This document shows positions 8,667-48,925 of a stretch of 58,584 nt of DNA, piece by piece (positions within the stretch are counted from its first letter, which is position 1; every line of letters begins with the position of its first letter). The notes below the pieces were generated by a model, which saw only the letters and a list, made by a program, of their open reading frames with translations, searched no databases and was not told where the DNA came from. Origin of the DNA: a bacterium (GTDB lineage Bacteria; Bacillota; Clostridia; Lachnospirales; Lachnospiraceae); the NCBI GenBank assembly GCA_028724545.1, contig JAQYCU010000031.1, positions 1 to 58,584 of the forward strand, in the 5' to 3' direction. The position numbers were made by a program, and so were the translations under genes.

Positions 8667-8845
8667 TTTACTCTTGTGCTTATTTTGTACTTTATCTCTA
8701 TGTATTATTGTAGTTTTAGTTATATAATTTGTTTTTTACGTTTTACTTCTATGATTTGCTCTTATAAAATGTTTCAGTGATTTGATATATTTTATAGTTT
8801 GTTCTAGGTTTATTTGTGTTGAACTGTTAAAGTTTGTTTTGACGG

Positions 8846-9000
8846 TTTATTGTATGTTGTGCTTTTACAGTTTACTTTTGGTGGTTTATTGTATGTTATG
8901 TTTTTATAGTTTACTTTTGGTGGTCTATTGTATGTTATGTTTTTATAGTTTGCTTTTGGTGGTCTATTGTATATTATGCTTTTATAATATGCTTCAGTAA
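8846..9000. repeat. 39-bp tandem repeat, about four copies
   Basis: Units start at 8846, 8885, 8924 and 8963, each beginning T(T/C)TATTGTAT and containing TTTTA(T/C)AGTTT, with increasing divergence in the last copy. A weaker copy may precede the first. The open frame across it merely translates the repeat into a repeating hydrophobic 13-residue unit and has no Shine-Dalgarno, so I do not call it a gene. Confidence 0.8.
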
Positions 9001-15623: not shown

Positions 15624-15680
15624 AGAAAGTACACGGGAAATAAAAAGAGCAAAAAGTGTAGGAAAGAAAGAGTACCAGAA

Positions 15681-15835
15681 AGAGCGAGAAATACAGGATA
15701 GAAAAAGAAGCAGGAAGAGTGAGAAGTATAGGATAGAAAAAGAAGCAGGAAGAGCGAGAAGTATAGGATAGAAAAGGAAGCAGAAAGAGCGAGAAGTATA
15801 GAATAGAAAAGGAAGCAGAAAGAGCGAGAAGTAAA
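15681..15835. repeat. 35-bp tandem repeat between deoC and cdd
   Basis: The word AGAGYGAGAA recurs at 15681, 15716, 15751, 15786 and 15821, exactly 35 bp apart, with the intervening RTAYAGRATAGAAAARGAAGC largely conserved. That is about 4.4 purine-rich units with no long open frame. Confidence 0.85.
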
Positions 15836-16340: not shown

Positions 16341-16384
16341 GCACAGGATATGAAAAGATAAGATAAAAAGAAAGCACTTTACAA

Positions 16385-16480
16385 AAAAGCATAATGCTGA
16401 GGAGAACTAGATTACAAAAATGCATAACGCTGAGGAAAACCAGCTTACGAAAAAATATAATGTTGAGGAGAACAGCTTAT
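16385..16480 (+). repeat. Three tandem 33-bp copies of the pdp translation-initiation region
   Basis: AAGCATAATGCTGAGGAGAA (16387 on), TGCATAACGCTGAGGAAAA and TATAATGTTGAGGAGAA lie exactly 33 bp apart (GAGGA cores near 16399, 16432 and 16465). The third copy supplies the Shine-Dalgarno and ends in the ATG of pdp. The first two carry similar Shine-Dalgarno-like cores followed by TTAC instead of TTATG. Confidence 0.85.
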
Positions 16481-17825: not shown

Positions 17826-20045
17826 TTAACGGTAAGAATCCTGATTTGTTTTCAGAATTCTTTTATTTTGGTAAATGTCAAGGATTCCTTTTTTCTTACG
17901 AAAAACTGTTTTTGTGCCGGAGAAAACGGTCAGAGAAGTTTTCAGTAATTTTCCGTTGCTGTTGTAAAAGGCAAGTATTGTATTAGGGTAAGAAGTGCTG
18001 GTACGAACACTATTTTGCGTTATGGCATTACTGCTGTAATATGAAATGTCAAGCGTCTGTGGTATAAAGTCAGATGGTGCAGTTAATACAGCAGAGGATG
18101 ACGAATTAGCAGAAGCTATGGATGCAGAATTGGTCGAGGCAGAATTGGTTGATGCAGAGTTTGTTGAGGCTGCTGTATAAGAGGATGAATTAGCAGGTTT
18201 ACAGCAAATTTGGGCAGAGGGTGCTTCTGACAAGGTATTTTCTGCATTCTGCGATAATATGAGTTTTTGTGTATTCAGGACAGAATAGGTTTCGCCTACC
18301 ATTGTGTCGGAAATGGGACACAGTAAATACTTTCCGTCTTTTAGTAGTGATGAAATAACCAGATTGGCTGTTGGCAGACGATAGGAAGAAAACAGAAAAG
18401 GGGTACTGGAAAAAGAACCGACTAAAAAGTATCTGCTGTCCCAAATCTGGTACAGGTTAAAAGAGGCTGTAGCAGAAGAATTTGCAGCCATATTATTGGA
18501 CATATTAACGGAATTGCCAAAAACCAAAATTCGTGAATAGTATGGTTTTTCTAAAGAAATAAGCAATGGCAAAATCCTACCATTTCTTACCTGTAAAGAA
18601 GATACGGAGGAAATACCTGTCACAGTATTCTGGCTGTCATTAGCACGCAGCTGTACATAATAATTTCCATCGGGCAGAGATAAGCTGGAAAGCAAAGGAA
18701 GAGAAATTGTATTTTCTGCAATGGCAAGCGATTTTTTAGCATATGTTTTTTGGTAAAAAGGAACGGCATCCTCTTTGCAAAACAAGGATACGGTAAGTGT
18801 CTGGCAGGAATCGATATCAATATTATGGTTATAGTCAATGTAAAGTGAATTTGTTTTTGTTACGGGAAGCTCTTTTAATTGCATATGAAGCAAAACGTGG
18901 TTTGTATAAAAAGGGGCAAAAGAAAAAATCATCTTTTTTGTTTCATAACTTTTTGCTGTGTTTTTTTGCGTAGCATTTTTTGTAAAATAGATAAGGTAAG
19001 TTTCGTCCTGACGGAGTGGCTTTGCTAACTGCTTCCGATTCCAAAGACTGGTCTGATAAGTGCGCAAATAGGAAAACTGTGTGTCATTTTTCCATACAAT
19101 TTTTGTGTAAGGAGTCAGAATGGCATTTTTTGCAGAGCCAAGCGATAATCTTCCGGAAGAATCCGTTTTTCCGGAGAAAACAATATTTCCTTTTTTGAGT
19201 GTGTCAGTCTGCGAAGAACAGCCTGACAATTTTTGTGTATTTTTTCGCGCAGTTGCAGAAAAAATCTGAATGGTTGTATCTGACAGCGGCTGGTTATTAT
19301 AATCGGTCACTAGAAAATCCAGCAGGCAGGAAGAGTTTTTGGAGGATTTTAATATAATATTTTCGCAAACAATTCCCTTTGAAGAAAGGTTTAATGAAGT
19401 AATGGTATTTTTTTGAAAACCTTTTTTTGTGGCAGTCAGAGAAACCGGTTTACGGTTGCAGAACAGATGATAGTATCCGTTTTTGTTTGTTTTGCAGGTA
19501 AGGGTTTTAGAAGTTGTTTTTAATCTGACAGAGGCATTTGCAATCGGTTTTCCGTTGTAGTTGCATACGAATCCTGCAATTGTATTTTTTGTTAAGCGTT
19601 CGCTGTAACGGACTTTTCTTTTTCCGGCAAAAAGGGAAGACTGCAAATAGTAAATTCCATTTTTGGAAGTGTTTGCAGGACACAGAAGATGCTGCTTTGA
19701 GGCAGGTATTTTGTATAAAATATTTCGTCCGTTTTTGGAAAGTTTATAAAAAGAAGCAATTATTTTAAAGTTTTTCTTCTTTTTGGAAGAAAGGACAATT
19801 TTGCTTTTTGCAACTTCTTTTTTTAGCAGAATACGGCTGCTTTTTAATGTAATCGTAAAATTCCACGGATTGACAGTGGTTTCTGCTGTGATTCTGGCGT
19901 AGGGGAGGCGCGTGGATTCTTTGGCAGAGCAGGAAACAGGATTTCTAAAACAAAGCAGGGTAAAAAAGAAAATAATCGCAAGACAATAAAAAGGAAATAA
20001 AGTGTTATCGCTCGTTTTGTTTGCTTTCAGTAGTCTATTTATCAT
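17826..20045 (-). CDS. Large secreted or membrane-anchored protein with carboxypeptidase-regulatory-like domains
   Basis: A 739-residue surface protein of unknown function. A hydrophobic stretch at about residues 17-38 (FPFYCLAIIFFFTLLCF) is a signal peptide or anchor. At least two carboxypeptidase-regulatory-like beta-sandwich repeats are visible (around 155-215, NYNGKPIANASVRLKTTS, and 240-310, DYNNQPLSDTTIQIFSA). They belong to the class that often carries surface adhesins. A Ser/Asn/Ala stretch with STNSA repeats near 620-650 may be a flexible linker. The ATG follows AGGAGG and starts 9 bp after the kinase stop, so it is the last gene of a three-gene operon. No sortase or lipid anchor motif is seen. 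Confidence 0.7.
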   Translation of the reverse strand: MINRLLKANKTSDNTLFPFYCLAIIFFFTLLCFRNPVSCSAKESTRLPYARITAETTVNPWNFTITLKSSRILLKKEVAKSKIVLSSKKKKNFKIIASFYKLSKNGRNILYKIPASKQHLLCPANTSKNGIYYLQSSLFAGKRKVRYSERLTKNTIAGFVCNYNGKPIANASVRLKTTSKTLTCKTNKNGYYHLFCNRKPVSLTATKKGFQKNTITSLNLSSKGIVCENIILKSSKNSSCLLDFLVTDYNNQPLSDTTIQIFSATARKNTQKLSGCSSQTDTLKKGNIVFSGKTDSSGRLSLGSAKNAILTPYTKIVWKNDTQFSYLRTYQTSLWNRKQLAKPLRQDETYLIYFTKNATQKNTAKSYETKKMIFSFAPFYTNHVLLHMQLKELPVTKTNSLYIDYNHNIDIDSCQTLTVSLFCKEDAVPFYQKTYAKKSLAIAENTISLPLLSSLSLPDGNYYVQLRANDSQNTVTGISSVSSLQVRNGRILPLLISLEKPYYSRILVFGNSVNMSNNMAANSSATASFNLYQIWDSRYFLVGSFSSTPFLFSSYRLPTANLVISSLLKDGKYLLCPISDTMVGETYSVLNTQKLILSQNAENTLSEAPSAQICCKPANSSSYTAASTNSASTNSASTNSASIASANSSSSAVLTAPSDFIPQTLDISYYSSNAITQNSVRTSTSYPNTILAFYNSNGKLLKTSLTVFSGTKTVFRKKKGILDIYQNKRILKTNQDSYR
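17835..17868 (+). terminator. Terminator after pdp, inside the 3' end of the opposing gene
   Basis: AGAATCCTGA, a 7-nt loop, then TCAGAATTCT (one mismatch in 10 bp) followed by TTTATTTT. It overlaps the last codons of the convergent minus-strand gene. Confidence 0.65.
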
Positions 20046-20054
20046 AAATACCTC

Positions 20055-21722
20055 CTAATATAAAATGGTGCAAAGAGGAAGTTTTTTTTGCAAAAAGGAA
20101 ACCTCTTTTTTCGTAATGTTAGTATCTGTTATAACAAGATATTGCAATTTTTTCAGTGTAGACAGAGTGCGAATATTTTTAATATTTTTATTGCCGGATA
20201 TATCTAAAATGGACAGGGATGTAATTTTAGAAAGTTCGGTTATGTCGCAAAGTTTATTGTCTGACAAACTCAGAATTTTCAATTTTTTCAATTCTGACAG
20301 GCCAGACAGGGAGCAGATTTTATTGTTATCAAGGTATAACTCCTGCAAAGAAGTAAAACTTTCAAAAGTACTACTGTTGTTAAAAAGATTATGACTGGCA
20401 ATCACTATTTTGATTTCATTTGTAGCAGTGGTTACATGTAACGACGATAAATCGGATGATGATAAATCTGCATAAGATTTATTCGCAATATTCAAAGTGC
20501 AATCCAGAGTTCCCGACGGAGAAGGAACAGGAGAAGCCGTTATAGCGTTTTCCACTGGAGAGGACACAGGAGATTCTGTTACAGCACTTTCCACTGGAGA
20601 AGGTGTAGAAGATGCCGTCACAGTATTTTCCGACTGAGAGGGTGTAGGGGATTTTGTCACAGCATTTTCCACCGGAGAGGGCGCAGAAGATGCCGTAGTT
20701 TTCTCTAGTGCAGAACCTGTCGCAACTGATATTACATAATCCTGCTTTTTTGAAAAAGTATCTTCTTTTACTTTTGGTGCAACAACCTGGTAAAGAGAAA
20801 ACAAAAAAAGGCATCCGGCAAAAAGAAACAGCATACTTGCGAGTCCTTTTTCTTCTTTTTCGTGAGAAATCATTTCCAGCGTTGTATCGTTTAAGATATC
20901 AGCTATATCGCTTTTTGCTACACTGGCATCAGATAAAGCAATTTTGTACTCCCGGCAAAGACGTTCTTTGTCGCAGAGTGCAAAGGCTTCTGCTAAAGAA
21001 GCAAAAAAGGCTTCCGTCGAATAAAGTGGCTGTTTGGTTTTTGGCAGTTCATCTGTATGCACATTGTCTGCCACAAAAAATATTTTCTGAAAAATGTTAT
21101 CTGCCGGAGTAAAAGGACTTATATCTGCTAAGGAAATATTTTCAGGAAGATTTCCGTTGTGCAGCAGCATAAATAAAAGCAGTGAAATCTGATACAAATC
21201 CTGATAATACGCAGGCAGTGAAGATTTTCTTTGTTCCGGCAGCGAAAATGTAGTGCGTGACCGGGTACGGTAAACTTTCTTTTTGTAATAAAAGGAAAGC
21301 AAAAAATTCTTATCTGCGTAACACGAGGAGGAAAAGTCACCTAGATAAAAGTGATGATTTTTATCCAGATAAATATTTTGTGGTGTGATATCCAGATGAA
21401 GGATTCCGGCCTGATGCAGGGCAGAAACAGCCTGTCCAATATCTTCTGATAATTGTCTGATTTCAGCAAAAGAAAAATTTCGTGTGGATAACACCTGTCC
21501 TAATGTATCAAAATATGGCGTGATAAAATAAACATAAGAAGCATCACGAAATTCTTCTGCCGGCAGCAGCAGATGTTTGTTTTTGAAAGAAAAAATAGTT
21601 TGATAAAGTGATTTGCAAAAATACTTTTTGGAAAGTATTTTTAAGACATAGTATTCTCCAGTTTCAAGGGAAATCACTTTATACAGTACATTATGTTGAT
21701 TTGCAGTTATCATTCGCTGCAC
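20055..21722 (-). CDS. Receptor-like protein kinase: cytoplasmic kinase, one TM helix, Pro/Ser/Thr stalk, extracellular leucine-rich repeats
   Basis: 555 residues from GTG 21722. Hanks-type kinase (about 1-255): beta-3 Lys28 in YYVLKILSK, catalytic loop HLDITPQN (Asp111, Asn116), Asp129 in DFS instead of DFG, LPE for APE (Glu163), Asp175 in helix F. The Gly-rich loop is replaced by TANQHNVLYKV. One TM helix at 293-315, a stalk of 13-residue PSPVENAVT repeats (about 344-405), then SDS22-like LRRs (about 425-555, ELYLDNNKI, ILSLSDNKL). The start is uncertain: ATG 21713 follows GAGGTG, but the frame is open up to 21806 and its codons read KYEVQRMI, like a kinase N-lobe start. AGGAGGG (21807-21813) has only ATT 21800 at good spacing. 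Whether the kinase is active is unknown. Confidence 0.82.
   Translation of the reverse strand: MQRMITANQHNVLYKVISLETGEYYVLKILSKKYFCKSLYQTIFSFKNKHLLLPAEEFRDASYVYFITPYFDTLGQVLSTRNFSFAEIRQLSEDIGQAVSALHQAGILHLDITPQNIYLDKNHHFYLGDFSSSCYADKNFLLSFYYKKKVYRTRSRTTFSLPEQRKSSLPAYYQDLYQISLLLFMLLHNGNLPENISLADISPFTPADNIFQKIFFVADNVHTDELPKTKQPLYSTEAFFASLAEAFALCDKERLCREYKIALSDASVAKSDIADILNDTTLEMISHEKEEKGLASMLFLFAGCLFLFSLYQVVAPKVKEDTFSKKQDYVISVATGSALEKTTASSAPSPVENAVTKSPTPSQSENTVTASSTPSPVESAVTESPVSSPVENAITASPVPSPSGTLDCTLNIANKSYADLSSSDLSSLHVTTATNEIKIVIASHNLFNNSSTFESFTSLQELYLDNNKICSLSGLSELKKLKILSLSDNKLCDITELSKITSLSILDISGNKNIKNIRTLSTLKKLQYLVITDTNITKKEVSFLQKKLPLCTILY
20515..20700 (-). repeat. 39-bp repeats encoding the kinase stalk
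   Basis: The coding strand repeats a 13-residue unit about four times (SPVENAVTK-type, with PSPS/TPSP spacers), giving a Pro/Ser/Thr-rich extracellular stalk. Copies differ at several codons, so copy number may vary between strains. Confidence 0.75.
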
Positions 21723-21806
21723 CTCATATTTTTGCAGAATAGGAGCAGGAAACGAAAATGTTGCATTGTGATTAGAAAACCTGTTAAAAAAATCGAAAAT
21801 AAAAAT

Positions 21807-21813
21807 CCCTCCT
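21807..21813 (-). promoter_or_regulatory. Strong Shine-Dalgarno without a canonical start codon
   Basis: The mRNA reads AGGAGGG at 21813-21807. No ATG, GTG or TTG follows within 15 nt in any frame. An AUU at 21800-21798, in frame with the kinase, has a 7-nt spacing. This may be an AUU start, or a chance match just after the stop of the upstream gene (21816). Confidence 0.45.
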
Positions 21814-21815
21814 GT

Positions 21816-22580
21816 TTACATAACGCGAATCAGACAGGAACGATTGCAAAAAGAAGAAGACTTGCTTTTAAAATAAAGGATAGCCGTTCCCGGTGATACT
21901 GCTGTTATTTTGTTTTCTTTTATAGTAACTACATCTGTGTTGGTACTGATTATTTTAAAGTATTTTGAAACAGATGATTTTTTCGTGTTTGTCAGAGTGA
22001 CCATATGACTGCCATTTTGTTTCATATACAGAAAGTGAGGACAAACCACGGATATTGCATCTGGTGTGACAGACTGCTTTTTTTCAGAAGGAGAAGTGAC
22101 AGCTTTCTTACTTACTTTTTTTGATTTTCTCAGGCTGGAGTTGATTTTTTCTGCCGACAAGCGAATAGCCAGGGAAGAATGTGATATATTCGTGATTTTC
22201 AGAAAAATATACTTTCCTCTTTTCGGAACAAGTAACGTATCTGTCTGTTTGTTAGGCTGCTTCATTGAGGATACAGGAGAAATTCTTCTGCCGGTATCCG
22301 TAAAATATTTCCATACTGCTCCAGACATTTTTGTTGACTGGAGTTGAAAGGTCAGCTTCTTTTTGTAAGAAACGCAGTAATAATGTGATTCATTAGCCGG
22401 TATGCTGTCAGAATACGTTTTTGAGAGCGAAAGAAATTTCGCATTTGTTACCGTGTCATTACCAGAATGTTTTGAAGCATCTGAAACGGACTTGCACGGA
22501 CAAATCAAAAGCAGACTGCTCAATGACAAAAATAGTATGAAACATTTTATAAACAATCCTTTCAAAAATAACTCTTTCAT
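21816..22580 (-). CDS. Secreted or membrane-anchored protein with a C-terminal bacterial Ig-like domain
   Basis: 254 residues, unknown function. The N-terminal hydrophobic stretch (about 10-30, FIKCFILFLSLSSLLLIC) is a signal peptide or anchor. There is no proper lipobox because the -1 position is Ile. The middle has an all-beta look (SHYYCVSYKKKLTFQLQ, GKYIFLKITNI). The last 75 residues resemble a BIG2-type Ig domain (VVTIKENKITAVSPGTAILYF). ATG 22580 is preferred over the TTG just before it. First gene of the operon with the kinase, whose reading frame begins 16 to 94 bp after this stop. Confidence 0.68.
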   Translation of the reverse strand: MKELFLKGLFIKCFILFLSLSSLLLICPCKSVSDASKHSGNDTVTNAKFLSLSKTYSDSIPANESHYYCVSYKKKLTFQLQSTKMSGAVWKYFTDTGRRISPVSSMKQPNKQTDTLLVPKRGKYIFLKITNISHSSLAIRLSAEKINSSLRKSKKVSKKAVTSPSEKKQSVTPDAISVVCPHFLYMKQNGSHMVTLTNTKKSSVSKYFKIISTNTDVVTIKENKITAVSPGTAILYFKSKSSSFCNRSCLIRVM

Positions 22581-22709
22581 CAATAGTTCGTTCCTTTCAT
22601 CAATAATTTTTTCTTTTCGTCTTGTGTAAGTATTTTAGTTGTTTTCACAGGAAAATTCTATTGACAGAATACTTAAAATGATGAGAAATATTTTGTTACA
22701 TATGAATAG

Positions 22710-22832: not shown

Positions 22833-25352
22833 CTAATTTGAAATATAACTTACAAATTTATATCCGGCATTTTTAAACATATGCTCTGCCGTGGTTAACG
22901 CAACGGTTCTCTTAGAACGGGTAGCCGGGTCCATCCAGCTGACGGTAGAAGAGGTGTATTCGGTAATCAGAACTGCGTGATTGTTGTCTAACATACCGAT
23001 AACCGGGCGTTCACTGCTGACAAAATAAAGGACTTCATCCAGTGTACATCCCGTCAGATTGACCGGACGCTCCAGATGCTTTTTCAACATAGAAAGGATA
23101 GATTTTCCTTTTAATTGCGAAGTGGTTGTCGTTACCTGTGCTGCCTGAAGCAACATATTCGTACAAGCCTTTATCGTAGAAGTGTTTCCTTCCGGATAAC
23201 TGATGTTTGACAGTTGCTTGCTCAAAAACTTACCACCACGCTCCCATACAATGTGGGAATCGCTATCCATAACAACACCCATTTGCTCATCAGCCAGCGT
23301 AATTGCTTTGGAAGCACTTGTTGTAGACTGGGTAATTCCTCCGTTGGCATAAATATAGTATGTTACGGATTTTGACAAATCCTCTTCTGTTAAATGCAAT
23401 GTTGTATTTTCGGTTACCATAACGCATTTTGTGGAAGTGACTTCCGGTTTATTTGCCAGAACAAAACCTGCCGGAAGTGACAGATATTTTTCTGTTAATG
23501 CCTGCTGGGTAACACGTGTTGTCAAATGAACAGAAGCTTTTACCGTATTTTTCTGGTTCATAATAGTGTCGTCCGTGGTGTCTTTAAATCTGCCATTTTG
23601 CTTTTTGACACGTTTTAAATGGATTACGTTATCATCGACACTGGCACTGGTAACATAATAGTTTTTGATTCGGTATTTTCGCAGAACGGTTCCCTTGCAA
23701 TCAGAAATAATCAACTGGTAAGCCGGCTTGATGACATCCCCGGTAGTGGATTCGTAAATATCTTTATTTCGCACAAATCCATATACAATATTGGAGTCAA
23801 TCGTTCCAAAAACAACGATATTTTGATTTGCAGGCGATTTCACCGTCAATTCTTTGGAAGTATCCAAATCCAGAATGGTAATGTTATCGGCATAACCGTC
23901 TTCATTCATATTGGACCAGACAAAACATTTTGCTGCTTCCAGCATAGAGAAATGATTTCTCGTTGCTTCTTCTGTCAGAATATCATAGCGTTTGGATGCG
24001 ATATTATACGCGTAAACCGTATCATTCAAAGAAAAATAGAAAATATTTTTCTTATTTACATAGGAGAATTTACCTAAATCCTCTTTTAATTTCTGGTAGG
24101 TGGTTGTCAGAGGAATGTAGACACGTTCTGTAATCTGGTTGTCCTCTGCACTGTAATCATAAAGCAGAATGCCTACACGGCCCTCATAATCGCCACAATT
24201 CATATAGCCATAAAGCATAAAACTGATATTGCCGTCATCATCTGTCTGCAGGATTTTTATATCGTGCTGGTCATAGTGGTCCCTGAGATAATCTTTGGAA
24301 TCCTGTGCAAATGAAAAGACAGATGTCAGTTTATTTTTTTCTAAATCATAATACCAGAGCGTTCCATTTCTGACGAAAGCCACTTTTTTGTTGGAATCGC
24401 TGGAACTGATATCCAAATCGGACTGATTGGTAATACCAATTTTAAATTCACTTTTCGTCAGAGAAATTAAATCCGGATTGAAAAATGCTTCCATAGTACG
24501 GTTAAATGCCAGAAGATAAATTCGGTTGGAAGAGTAACGTACCCGGTAAAATTCTTTGACATGGTAAATTTCTTTGCCGGAATCTGTTTTTGCCTGCACA
24601 AAATAATCCTGAAAGACGGAAGCCGTTTCGATATTAATTTCTTTAATGGTAGGAACTGCTTTCGTCAATTTCTTTGGATTCAATTTTTTCCAGGTAATCA
24701 GGTTACGGCTGGAATGAATATTTACATCGGCAAAAGTGGAATCATCTGACGTATTTGCTTCCAGATAGGGAGAAATATCAAATGATTTTTCTTTATTAAA
24801 AGTTGCCTGATGAAAAGAATTTACAAAATCCAGTTTCTCATCCAGAAAACAATCATTGTTATAATATTTTATTCTGGTATAGAAATGGATTTTTTTGCTG
24901 TAACTTGTTGTCAGTGTAATCTGCATACCATATTCCGTGCTGGTGTCCAGCCCCTGGCTGATTTTTATGACAGCAGTACGATAGCCGTCTTCTGTGTCAA
25001 AAGCCGTAAGTTCATTTGTTTCGAGTACCTTGTCATTTGCAATGTCACGCAATTCATATTTCAGCTTTTTGATTTTTGATTCATTCTGCTGAATTTTTAC
25101 AGTAAACTTCTTTGTCGTATCAAGTGGAGTAATGGATTCGCGAACGGAATCACTGTTCATTTCACTGCTGTAGCCGTGCAGGGTATTGATGGTATAATCA
25201 TTGACCTGCAGGTAGACAATAGGAAAGGTAGAATCCTGCAGGCTGGTAGCTGTTGTCTTGGTAACAGACAGTTCTGGAATATCCCGTCCAAAGAAGAAAA
25301 TGGATGCAATAAATAAAAATAGTAATCCGATAAATTTATATAAATGTTTCAA
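22833..25352 (-). CDS. Membrane-anchored extracellular protein with C-terminal C39-like cysteine peptidase domain
   Basis: 839 residues. A single N-terminal helix (about 4-22, FIGLLFLFIASIFFF) anchors a large extracytoplasmic part. Residues about 300-600 contain repeated strand units (KKVAFVRNGTLWYYDLEKN, KKNIFYFSLNDTVYAYNIA) that suggest a beta-propeller. The last 120 residues look like a papain-like C39 domain: candidate Cys in ACTNMLLQAA, His in NNHAVLITEY, Asp in WMDPATR. The usual Gln before the Cys is not in an obvious place, so peptidase activity is a guess. No transporter gene is adjacent. It is transcribed alone, upstream of the kinase operon. Confidence 0.65.
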   Translation of the reverse strand: MKHLYKFIGLLFLFIASIFFFGRDIPELSVTKTTATSLQDSTFPIVYLQVNDYTINTLHGYSSEMNSDSVRESITPLDTTKKFTVKIQQNESKIKKLKYELRDIANDKVLETNELTAFDTEDGYRTAVIKISQGLDTSTEYGMQITLTTSYSKKIHFYTRIKYYNNDCFLDEKLDFVNSFHQATFNKEKSFDISPYLEANTSDDSTFADVNIHSSRNLITWKKLNPKKLTKAVPTIKEINIETASVFQDYFVQAKTDSGKEIYHVKEFYRVRYSSNRIYLLAFNRTMEAFFNPDLISLTKSEFKIGITNQSDLDISSSDSNKKVAFVRNGTLWYYDLEKNKLTSVFSFAQDSKDYLRDHYDQHDIKILQTDDDGNISFMLYGYMNCGDYEGRVGILLYDYSAEDNQITERVYIPLTTTYQKLKEDLGKFSYVNKKNIFYFSLNDTVYAYNIASKRYDILTEEATRNHFSMLEAAKCFVWSNMNEDGYADNITILDLDTSKELTVKSPANQNIVVFGTIDSNIVYGFVRNKDIYESTTGDVIKPAYQLIISDCKGTVLRKYRIKNYYVTSASVDDNVIHLKRVKKQNGRFKDTTDDTIMNQKNTVKASVHLTTRVTQQALTEKYLSLPAGFVLANKPEVTSTKCVMVTENTTLHLTEEDLSKSVTYYIYANGGITQSTTSASKAITLADEQMGVVMDSDSHIVWERGGKFLSKQLSNISYPEGNTSTIKACTNMLLQAAQVTTTTSQLKGKSILSMLKKHLERPVNLTGCTLDEVLYFVSSERPVIGMLDNNHAVLITEYTSSTVSWMDPATRSKRTVALTTAEHMFKNAGYKFVSYISN

Positions 25353-44499: not shown

Positions 44500-46206
44500 A
44501 TGCATAAGAACTTTCTAAAGAAGTTGACCTCAATGCTTCTTATTTCCAGCATGGTAGTTGGTTCAACTGCTATGCTGACTGGCTGTGGCTCAAGTAAGGA
44601 TGAGGTTGTTACACTTGATGTTTATAGTCAGTTAGCAAATTATTCCGGATTGCAGACCGGATGGATTGCTGATGTATTAAAGAAGAAATTTAACGTCAAA
44701 TTAAATATTATTTCCGATGGAGATGGTGTTTATGAAACCCGTATGGAAGATGGCGATTTAGGCGATATTATGGTTTGGGCCAACGACAGCGACAGATATC
44801 CTACTGCCGTGAAAAATGGTCTTTTGTATGATTGGAATGAAGATGACCTTCTTTCTGATTATGGCAAATATATCAAAAAGCATATGTCGGCTGCATTGAC
44901 GAAAAATCAGGAATTAACTTCCACGATTACCGATGGTGCAAAAGATACACTTTATGGTTTTGGTCATAATGTTGCTACATCCAGTGAGGACCACGAATCT
45001 TTCTTCTATACATGGGATGTGCGTTGGGATTTATACAAGCAACTGGGTTATCCAAAAGTAAAAGACCTGGACGATTTCAAAAAACTGATGCACGATATGG
45101 TGGAACTTTGTCCGACAGATGATTCTGGAAACAAAACATATGCTGTGTCACTGTGGCCTGATTGGGACGACGCTATGGTTATGTATGTAAAAGCAACAGT
45201 TACTGCTTACTATGGTTATGATGAATTAGGCATTGGATTATATGACCCACAGACAGGAAAACTGCATGACGCACTTGAGGAAAACGGTCCATACCTTGAG
45301 GTGTTGAAGTTTTATAATGATTTATATCAGGATGGTCTGCTTGACCCTGATTCTATGACACAGACTTATGACAAGATGATTGAAAAAGTACAGAATGGTG
45401 GAACTATGTTTTCTATCTTTAACTATTCCGGCTCTCTTGCTTATAACAAAAAAGAGCATACAGAGAATGGAAAGTTAATGTATTGTATGAAGCCGGAAAA
45501 GGCAACGCCGATTGTATATGGTATGAATCCACAGGGTGGTGACCGTATCTGGTCAATTGGTGCTACGACAGAATATCCGGAGTTATGTATGAAAGTAATT
45601 AATTACTTATGTACACCGGAAGGACGCCTTACGACGGAGTATGGTCCAAAGGGCGTATGTTGGGATTATGATGAAGAAGGAAATACCTATTTCACAGAAT
45701 TAGGTAAGAAATGTAATTCAAACAAGAATACAAAAATGGGTGGAGATTATAAAGGCTCTTTCCAGGATGGAACCCTTCAGATTGTCAATACAACATGGTC
45801 AATAGATGCTTCTAATCCGGATTCAAATGGGGAAACCTATAACAGCAACAACTGGAAGAGCAATCTTTCAAAGGCTGAAACTGATATTGAGCAGGATTGG
45901 CGCGACAAGACAGGATGTACCGGTATTAATGATTATATGGAGAAGGGCAACTACGTTGTTTCGCCGGGTACGTCTTATACAAAGAGCGAAAAGTCAGATG
46001 AATTAAAGACGACATGGTCGCAGGTAACAACAGAGATTACCAATGGTTCATGGAAAGCAATCTATGCCGATACAGATGCTGAGTACGATAAAATTGTCAA
46101 TGATATGATTAGAAAATGTAATAAATATGGTTATGATGAGTGCGTTAGCTGGACAGCAAATGAAGCTGCCAAGCGAAAGAGTTTGGAGGACGCAGTCACG
46201 AAATAA
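44500..46206 (+). CDS. Solute-binding lipoprotein, LplA-like
   Basis: 568 residues. The signal peptide ends in the lipobox LTGC (lipid-modified Cys near residue 29), followed by DEVVTLDVYSQLANYSG. The rest is a large type I-class extracellular binding protein (DLGDIMVWANDSDRYP, WDLYKQLGYPKVKDLDDF), presumably for an oligosaccharide. A close paralogue lies at 47210; read side by side, most positions are the same. A terminator follows. Confidence 0.9.
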   Translation: MHKNFLKKLTSMLLISSMVVGSTAMLTGCGSSKDEVVTLDVYSQLANYSGLQTGWIADVLKKKFNVKLNIISDGDGVYETRMEDGDLGDIMVWANDSDRYPTAVKNGLLYDWNEDDLLSDYGKYIKKHMSAALTKNQELTSTITDGAKDTLYGFGHNVATSSEDHESFFYTWDVRWDLYKQLGYPKVKDLDDFKKLMHDMVELCPTDDSGNKTYAVSLWPDWDDAMVMYVKATVTAYYGYDELGIGLYDPQTGKLHDALEENGPYLEVLKFYNDLYQDGLLDPDSMTQTYDKMIEKVQNGGTMFSIFNYSGSLAYNKKEHTENGKLMYCMKPEKATPIVYGMNPQGGDRIWSIGATTEYPELCMKVINYLCTPEGRLTTEYGPKGVCWDYDEEGNTYFTELGKKCNSNKNTKMGGDYKGSFQDGTLQIVNTTWSIDASNPDSNGETYNSNNWKSNLSKAETDIEQDWRDKTGCTGINDYMEKGNYVVSPGTSYTKSEKSDELKTTWSQVTTEITNGSWKAIYADTDAEYDKIVNDMIRKCNKYGYDECVSWTANEAAKRKSLEDAVTK

Positions 46207-47209: not shown

Positions 47210-48925
47210 ATGAAAAGAAGAAATTTATGGAAAAAGTTAATGTCTATGGCATTAGCTGGCAGCATGGTTATTGGTTTGACATCCACATTAACTGCCTGCG
47301 GAAAAGACGAAGTAATCACATTGGATGTCTATAGTCAGTTAGCAAACTATTCTGGTTTGCAGACAGGTTGGAGTGCAGATATTTTAATGGATAAGTTCAA
47401 TGTAAAATTGAACATCGTATCTGATGGTGATGGCGTGTACGAAACACGTATGGAAGATGGTAACTTAGGTGATATTATCATCTGGGGAAATGATGTAAAC
47501 AAATATGCAACAGCTGTTAAGAATGGTCTTCTGTTTGACTGGAACGAAGATGATACGCTGAAAGAGTATGGTCCTTACATCAAGAAACATATGCCTGATG
47601 CCATTACAAGAAACCAGAACCTGACAAAGGAACTGACAGACGGTAAAGAAGATACTTTATACGGAATTGCTGATGCAGTTGCTACATCCAGTGAAGACCA
47701 TCAGATGTTCTTCTACAACTGGGATTTACGTTGGGATTTATACAAACAGTTAGGATATCCAAAGGTAAATGACTTAGATGATTATTTACAGTTATTAGTA
47801 GATATGCAGAAACTTTGCCCAACAGATGATGCTGGTAACAAGACATATGCCGTATCATTATGGCCAGACTGGGATGATGCAATGGTTATGTATGTTAAAG
47901 CTACAGCTACAGCATACTATGGATATGATGAGTTAGGTGTTGGTTTATATGATTCTGACACTGGTACTTACCATGATGCATTGGAGGAGAATGGTCCTTA
48001 CCTTCAGATGTTAAAATTCTTTAACAATCTTAACCAGAAGGACTTATTAGACCCTAACTCAATGACACAGACATACGATAAGATGATTGAGAAAGTACAG
48101 AACGGTGGAGTATTAGCTTCTATCTTTAACTACAGTGGTTCTCTTGCTTACAATAAGAAAGAGCATACAGAAGCAGGTAAGTTAATGTACTGTATGAAAC
48201 CAGAAGATGCAAGCCCAATCGTTTATGGTATGAACACACAGGGTGGCTCTTACATCACAAGTATTGGTGCAAGCACAGAGTATCCTGATTTATGTATGGA
48301 AATCCTTAACTACTTCTGTACTCCAGAGGGACGTATGACATATGGTTATGGTCCTAAGGGCGAGTGCTGGGATTATGATGAAGAAGGTAACACATACTTC
48401 ACAGAGTTAGGTAAGAAGTGTCACGAGAACAAGAAGACAAAGATGGGCTCTAAGCATGAAGGAACATATAGCGATGGTGAATTACAGGCAGCATTCGCTA
48501 CATGGTCAATCGATGCAGAAAACCCAGATTCTAATGGCGAAACATATAACAGTGATAACTGGAAGAGCAATGTATCTGAAGCTGAAACTGAGATTGAGCA
48601 GGATTGGCGTGATAAGACAGGTTGTGTCAGCATCAATGATTACTTTGAAAAGGGTGATTATGTAGTTGCACCTGGTACATCATTCACTATGGCAACTAAG
48701 GATGATGAGTTAAAGACAACTTGGTCACAGGTAACAAATGAGATTAAGAATGGTTCATGGAAAGCAATGTACGCAAAGACAGATGCTGAATATGAGAAGA
48801 TTGTTAATAGCATGATTAAGAAAGCTAAGAGTTACGGTTATGACACTTGTGTTAAGTGGAGTAAAGAGCAGGCTGCTGAAAGACATAAATTAGAGCAGCA
48901 GGTAACTGCAAAAACAAGTAAATAA
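47210..48925 (+). CDS. Solute-binding lipoprotein, paralogue of the one at 44500
   Basis: 571 residues. Signal peptide with lipobox LTAC, then DEVITLDVYSQLANYSGLQ. Collinear and mostly identical with the 44500 protein over the whole length, including the C-terminal half (WSIDAENPDSNGETYNS). Its codon choice is more uniform (AAC, GGT, CCA, TTC, ACA), hinting at higher expression. It has its own promoter, AAGGAGG Shine-Dalgarno and terminator. A shared ligand or slightly different specificity is likely. Confidence 0.9.
   Translation: MKRRNLWKKLMSMALAGSMVIGLTSTLTACGKDEVITLDVYSQLANYSGLQTGWSADILMDKFNVKLNIVSDGDGVYETRMEDGNLGDIIIWGNDVNKYATAVKNGLLFDWNEDDTLKEYGPYIKKHMPDAITRNQNLTKELTDGKEDTLYGIADAVATSSEDHQMFFYNWDLRWDLYKQLGYPKVNDLDDYLQLLVDMQKLCPTDDAGNKTYAVSLWPDWDDAMVMYVKATATAYYGYDELGVGLYDSDTGTYHDALEENGPYLQMLKFFNNLNQKDLLDPNSMTQTYDKMIEKVQNGGVLASIFNYSGSLAYNKKEHTEAGKLMYCMKPEDASPIVYGMNTQGGSYITSIGASTEYPDLCMEILNYFCTPEGRMTYGYGPKGECWDYDEEGNTYFTELGKKCHENKKTKMGSKHEGTYSDGELQAAFATWSIDAENPDSNGETYNSDNWKSNVSEAETEIEQDWRDKTGCVSINDYFEKGDYVVAPGTSFTMATKDDELKTTWSQVTNEIKNGSWKAMYAKTDAEYEKIVNSMIKKAKSYGYDTCVKWSKEQAAERHKLEQQVTAKTSK

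Follow-up and report, generated by a model that had tools for sequence, protein, structure and literature searches.

The window, i.e., the whole stretch of DNA that was analysed, comprises 58,584 nucleotides of a Lachnospiraceae contig (JAQYCU010000031.1). Four genes, hereafter A, B, C, and D, follow one another on its minus strand. Gene C encodes, from the N- to the C-terminus, a kinase domain, a transmembrane (TM) helix, a stalk containing proline, serine, and threonine (P/S/T), and leucine-rich repeats (LRRs). The positions of the genes and features are listed in Table 1. Elsewhere in the window, two very similar lipoprotein-like solute-binding proteins (identified by eye) are encoded close together at 44500-46206 and 47210-48925.

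Table 1. Genes A to D and the features of gene C in the window.
Feature	Position	Strand	Description
Gene A	22833..25352	-	839 aa; hydrophobic N-terminus; weak C39_2 match at the C-terminus
Gene B	21816..22583	-	Hydrophobic N-terminus; C-terminal Big_2-like domain by alignment with relatives
Shine-Dalgarno-like AGGAGGG	21807..21813	-	6 nt before ATT 21800
Gene C (kinase, TM helix, P/S/T stalk, LRR)	20055..21800	-	581 aa from ATT 21800
Atypical kinase domain, N-terminal	20976..21800	-	K54, HLD 135-137, N142, DFS 155-157, αF D201
Single hydrophobic helix	20778..20834	-	Residues 323-341; Kyte-Doolittle mean 2.14
Four 39-bp (13-aa) stalk units	20518..20673	-	P/S/T-rich; about 70% alike
SDS22/internalin-like LRRs and conserved C-terminal cap	20058..20510	-	
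Gene D	17826..20045	-	Hydrophobic N-terminus; CarboxypepD_reg domain

The reading frame of gene C is open on the minus strand from 21815 down to the stop at 20055. The sequence-only reading of this DNA had started the protein at GTG 21722 (555 aa). This start is very likely too late, because relatives conserve the residues upstream of the GTG; Pro 18, which lies in this stretch, is kept in 20 of 23 relatives. No in-frame ATG, GTG, or TTG occurs upstream of GTG 21722 before the stop of gene B. The best candidate is ATT 21800, a likely start that follows a strong AGGAGGG. The nearest relative (L035) carries a similar AAGGGGGG, followed after 6 nt by an ATT at the matching place, and also has an ATG just before this ATT. 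In the other 23 members whose 5' end is present, the assigned starts are 13 ATG, 8 TTG, and 2 GTG. Rare start codons in the gene C family may hint at tuned translation.

Pfam profiles matched both ends of protein C: Pkinase (PF00069) at an E-value of 5.3e-12 (46.1 bits against a cut-off of 31.7) and LRR_4 at 3.9e-10 (40.1 bits against a cut-off of 27). Both families were matched at E ≤ 0.001 in 19 of 19 members, each scanned singly, which excludes a chance match; a chance open reading frame (ORF) or a false domain call was ruled out by these counts and scores. The Kyte-Doolittle profile showed one TM segment in the window copy. A strong hydrophobic segment is present in 25/25 members and is the only one in 24, with L037 having a second, weaker one. 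The parts described in the sequence-only reading, namely a Hanks-type kinase domain, one TM helix, a stalk encoded by 39-bp repeats, and SDS22-like LRRs, were thus borne out. The stalk of the window copy spans about 98 residues (45% P/S/T). Across species, its length ranges from 29 to 98 aa and its P/S/T content from 20 to 55%, so it is not always rich in these residues. Three other tandem repeats with units of 39, 35, and 33 bp lie at 8837-8986, 15644-15833, and 16379-16479 of the window, apparently in intergenic DNA.

The LRR domain of the window copy is short, with approximately 4-5 repeats as counted by eye. Among the NCBIfam models, those of InlA, InlH, and NEAT-LRR proteins were similar to it, at scores far below their curated cut-offs. 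Mean entropy is lowest, at 1.65, in the catalytic loop, the best conserved stretch of C, and at 1.90 in the LRR, the second best; it rises to 2.19 in the TM helix, 2.35 in the N-lobe, and 2.60 in the remainder of the C-lobe, and the stalk varies most (2.76). The LRR residues E487, Y489, and D533 are conserved. An argument for a ligand site based on them was dropped, since such residues are common in this class of LRR.

A full-length relative of C was found in 25 of the 28 genomes of its genus (Butyribacter-like Lachnospiraceae), the source genome included; one of these copies (L051) lacks its 5' end. The three genomes lacking C are 85, 60, and 65% complete. Butyribacter intestini TF01-11 is among the named records behind these loci, as are Lachnospiraceae metagenome bins. 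The presence of C in 25 of 28 genomes ruled out an oddity specific to one locus. Among 397 genomes of the family, at least two more genera carry such a protein: G336, with a full-length match, and G298, which surfaced as an LRR match and was recognized on inspection as a kinase-TM-LRR protein. The survey gives a lower bound, because no more than three candidates were scored in each genome and only the matches listed were counted. Pkinase and LRR_4 were found in one frame in 0 of 40 genomes taken from the other families of the phylum, one per family. The source genome and these 40 together yielded 69 Pkinase (E ≤ 1e-8) and 31 LRR_4 (E ≤ 1e-5) matches, which shared a frame only in the source genome. 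A genome scan with the single protein found nothing. The same domain order was thus found genus-wide, in two more genera, and also in canonical kinases. The claim that an LRR ectodomain on a single-pass kinase is unusual holds for the 40 genomes sampled from the other families of the phylum; it has to be qualified within Lachnospiraceae, which hold kinase-LRR fusions in three separate kinase clades.

A B-type gene stands immediately before gene C wherever the contig extends far enough to show it. This is the case in 24 of the 25 genus loci, the contig of L051 beginning inside C. The count comprises 23 loci from three BLAST clusters, grouped by this position and a Big_2-like end, plus L040, whose truncated ORF there matches B at E 1e-8. 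The window copy of B alone had no Pfam match at E ≤ 0.01. Pfam Big_2 matched 6 of 22 B members at this threshold, and the B profile matched parts of surface proteins in the PDB, which we read as Big_2-like. Of the 23 clustered copies, the B alignment included 22, omitting that of L054, which contains unread bases; the truncated B of L040 was also omitted. In G298 and G336, the gene in the place of B matched the B profile at E 6e-21 and 3e-12, respectively, with a strong low-complexity bias.

The commonest arrangement is the cassette A-B-C-D. Gene A precedes B in 22 genus loci. This region is cut off in L040 and L051, and the 1.1 kb visible in L047 has an unrelated 183-aa ORF in the place of A, so that A was not seen beside B and C there. 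In the G336 contigs 52 and 91 (L195 and L132), a gene that looks deoB-like by eye stands between A and B. B and C are still adjacent, and near-identical pieces of B suggest that the two contigs adjoin. The C39_2 match of A is below the cut-off (E 0.021, 15.8 bits against 24). The residues that we take to be the C39 catalytic ones are kept to different degrees in the relatives of A (Cys in 16/22, His in 18/22, and Asp in 22/22). No NCBIfam model matched the gene A family at E ≤ 0.1. Relatives of A occur in 117 of 120 family genomes, the source genome included, and are thus nearly universal in the sampled Lachnospiraceae. Outside the genus, the 20 loci with the closest A genes, some of them truncated by contig ends, have nothing behind A that matches C; five ORFs with kinase-like motifs there were judged by eye to be other enzymes or proteins. 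Gene D follows C in 19 of the 24 loci where the contig continues and is missing from L039, L047, L050, L052, and L054. CarboxypepD_reg was present in 18/18 D members scanned, and the D alignment covered 18 of the 19 loci, L037 being left out because its D is split into two frames.

Mean identity is low for B, C, and D (21.9, 29.1, and 27.9%, respectively), which evolve fast, versus 64.7% for A and 60-82% for eleven neighbouring genes. The partial correlation of evolutionary rate with C was 0.63 for D, 0.58 for A, 0.53 for parB, and 0.38 for B. This mirror-tree comparison was not used as evidence of partnership, because parB nearly equals D and A while B is low. A scan for promoter- and terminator-like sites gave 21 of the former (25.3 expected) and 14 of the latter (5.7 expected), and no operon borders were drawn. 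A role of C in defence was also considered and rejected. The PADLOC matches (best mad6, E 7e-15; also MkoA and PD-T4-6) are confined to the kinase part and are read as general kinase similarity; the three neighbours of C had no PADLOC match at E ≤ 0.01.

A tree was built from 49 kinase cores. The 27 receptors of the window type form one clade (support 100/99). The canonical kinase-TM-LRR proteins L133, L188, and L190, which keep HRD and DFG and have the domain order of C, form a second clade with the PASTA-type relative L189 (100/98). The TM-less kinase-LRR proteins L136 and L137 form a third (100/99), and L191 sits apart on a long branch. Because the kinase-LRR proteins fall into separate clades, an LRR was, in our reading, joined to a kinase three times or more in Lachnospiraceae. 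A single origin of all of them is disfavoured by the separate clades; one gain followed by many losses is formally possible. L189 (1390-3462, minus frame) and L188/L190 belong to one genus and bear PASTA-like repeats (by eye) or LRRs outside, which suggests an ectodomain swap between closely related kinases. Five further Lachnospiraceae membrane kinases (L077, L084, L093, L096, and L098) read HLDISPDN, with DFN in the place of DFG; all but L098 were placed in the tree, and these four form one clade. Pfam Big_2 was found in cis in L084 and L096, the two of these kinases that were scanned, and such a fusion hints at a link between B and C.

The N-terminal domain of C has a kinase fold, as judged from sequence profiles. 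A profile of 25 kinase domains matched solved kinases, best 9ymt and 4eqm (E 3.1e-23), the latter of which we take to be S. aureus PknB. Although the members are only 21-40% identical to the window copy, H135, D137, N142, G154, D155, and S157 are invariant in 25/25 genus members. The αF Asp (D201) is kept in 24/25 and the β3 Lys (K54 in the window copy) in 22/24, L051 being excluded from the Lys and Gly-loop counts. The invariant HxD Asp, Asn, and DFS Asp, with the mostly kept Lys, indicate that nucleotide binding and perhaps catalysis seem to be under selection. Other elements are gone. The Gly-rich loop GxGxx[GSA] is absent from 24/24 members having the N-terminus, and DFG reads DFS or DYS in 25/25, with Gly replaced by Ser throughout. 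The Arg of HRD is replaced by Leu, Met, Gly, or Phe in 25/25 (non-RD), and Glu occurs in at most 3 of 25 members at any column from 60 to 75, leaving the αC Glu unconserved. The missing Gly loop and the DFS noticed in the window copy are therefore real and family-wide, and the question they had raised, active kinase or pseudokinase, stays in a sharper form. Two members outside the genus diverge more, reading EADISPNN/GDLN in L132 and HKDIS/CDFP in L134; Pkinase was not matched in L132 at E ≤ 0.1. A Leptospira protein in the table of bacterial pseudokinases given in PMC12599244 also has DFS, but its HxD Asp is lost.

These losses, together with the β3 Lys missing from two members and the incomplete retention of the putative Cys and His in the C39-like end of A, would fit a pseudokinase platform. 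Here, the cytoplasmic domain would only anchor or recruit proteins, comparable to the pseudokinase EssB/YukC in its membrane machine. The LRR would join A, B, and D in a surface or adhesion complex, and no phosphorylation signal would be sent. We consider this account unlikely, though it deserves weight. It leaves the invariance of the catalytic-centre Asp, Asn, and Asp and the lower entropy of the catalytic loop relative to the rest of the C-lobe unaccounted for, and no YukC is among the Pfam matches. The same retained residues (the catalytic Asp, Asn, DFS Asp, αF Asp, and mostly the Lys) could instead indicate a fully active receptor Ser/Thr kinase resembling PrkC, in which the LRR replaces PASTA. 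A TGTxxFxPPE-like stretch seen by eye in many members and the occurrence of this architecture with canonical kinases point the same way. The absence of a Gly loop, the unconserved αC Glu, the DFS throughout, and the placement of canonical kinase-LRR proteins in a separate clade make such full activity improbable.

The kinase of C is probably in the cytoplasm, with the LRR outside on a stalk spanning the cell wall. This sidedness is inferred from the ATP need of the kinase family, the stalk, the signal-like N-termini of the neighbours, the internalin-like LRR, and the canonical kinases with the same order. The positive-inside rule was dropped as evidence because the test on aligned members came out null, with Lys/Arg residues more numerous on the N side in 9 and on the C side in 10, and equal in 6; a total of 77 versus 58, obtained with different borders, does not rescue it. 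That split, and the helix-less kinase-LRR proteins L136 and L137 in the family, could be taken to mean that the helix is peripheral or the topology reversed and the LRR a cytosolic interaction domain, which we regard as very improbable given the strong hydrophobic segment in every member, the stalk, the neighbours' N-termini, and the internalin-like LRR.

On balance, we favour the reading of C as a single-pass cell-surface receptor of Butyribacter-like Lachnospiraceae that would signal weakly or allosterically. At the envelope, its LRR would bind a ligand, either a protein or a glycan, and the co-encoded surface proteins B and D would most likely take part in this binding or mediate it. Ligand binding would alter how the cytoplasmic domain pairs or what shape it takes, and this domain has probably kept its ability to bind Mg-ATP. 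The output could be weak phosphotransfer or an allosteric or scaffold action on a partner; the latter is suggested by the non-RD make-up of the kinase and its lack of a Gly loop. A more specific and rather doubtful proposal is an LRR receptor-kinase system that arose independently of plants. It would comprise a genus-wide surface-sensing complex (A-B-C-D) in which a non-RD kinase with loosened catalytic constraint, as in plant EFR, is switched allosterically by an LRR reading a co-encoded secreted Big_2-like partner or the ligand of that partner. If the LRR is outside, bacteria arrived, as plants did, at coupling an LRR sensor to a kinase, probably on several occasions in one gut family, and one lineage kept an LRR-kinase receptor across a genus while loosening the kinase. 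Gene C would offer a small, tractable model of signalling by a non-RD or degenerate kinase. In gut commensals, the protein is also a candidate for sensing at the cell surface, and it may bind molecules of the envelope or of the host.

C shares with the PASTA kinases PrkC, PknB, and StkP an N-terminal kinase, a single helix, and a C-terminal ectodomain. It differs from them in its LRR ectodomain and degenerate kinase, and the PASTA kinases fall outside the window-type clade. No Pfam PASTA match was found in C or the scanned members; the source genome also encodes a PASTA kinase beside a PP2C-like gene (by eye). The premise that known membrane kinases carry PASTA domains was too narrow, since the membrane kinase PknD/Mbk is described with an NHL-propeller ectodomain (PMC1262709; PMC6213207). 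The canonical proteins L133, L188, and L190 have the domain order of C, and L133 also has a similar LRR cap, but they keep HRD and DFG and form a separate clade with the PASTA-type L189. Internalin-type LRRs resemble that of C in profile similarity, whereas the LRR of C is joined to a kinase via a helix. EssB/YukC of type VII secretion, a part of a membrane machine, has a cytoplasmic pseudokinase, a single helix, and an extracellular part. In C, the outer part is an LRR. A relation to EssB was rejected, as the YukC profile is absent from the Pfam families of C at E ≤ 1 and from the members scanned.

No bacterial kinase-TM-LRR receptor was found among the matches listed in the openly readable, non-preprint literature on receptors, pseudokinases, and non-RD kinases. 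The closest published bacterial cases among these matches are a P. aeruginosa STYK with an LRR, which combines kinase and LRR in one protein (PMC1262709), and the Vibrio STPKLRR, a secreted effector whose LRR precedes its kinase (PMC10237653). Unlike what we propose for C, neither is described as a transmembrane receptor in the available text of these papers. With its kinase probably inside, its LRR probably outside, and genes for secreted partners next to its own, C resembles plant receptor kinases and looks like their counterpart in bacteria. The comparison with a plant receptor kinase in reversed orientation is fair as an analogy. Plant LRR receptor kinases differ from C, in which the kinase is N-terminal, the repeats number approximately 4-5, the Gly loop is absent, and DFG reads DFS. 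The non-RD receptor kinases among them, such as EFR, share with C an LRR ectodomain, one helix, and a non-RD kinase. EFR is described as working in immunity without catalytic activity of its own (PMC8463890), and the likeness of C to it is best seen as analogy, not kinship.
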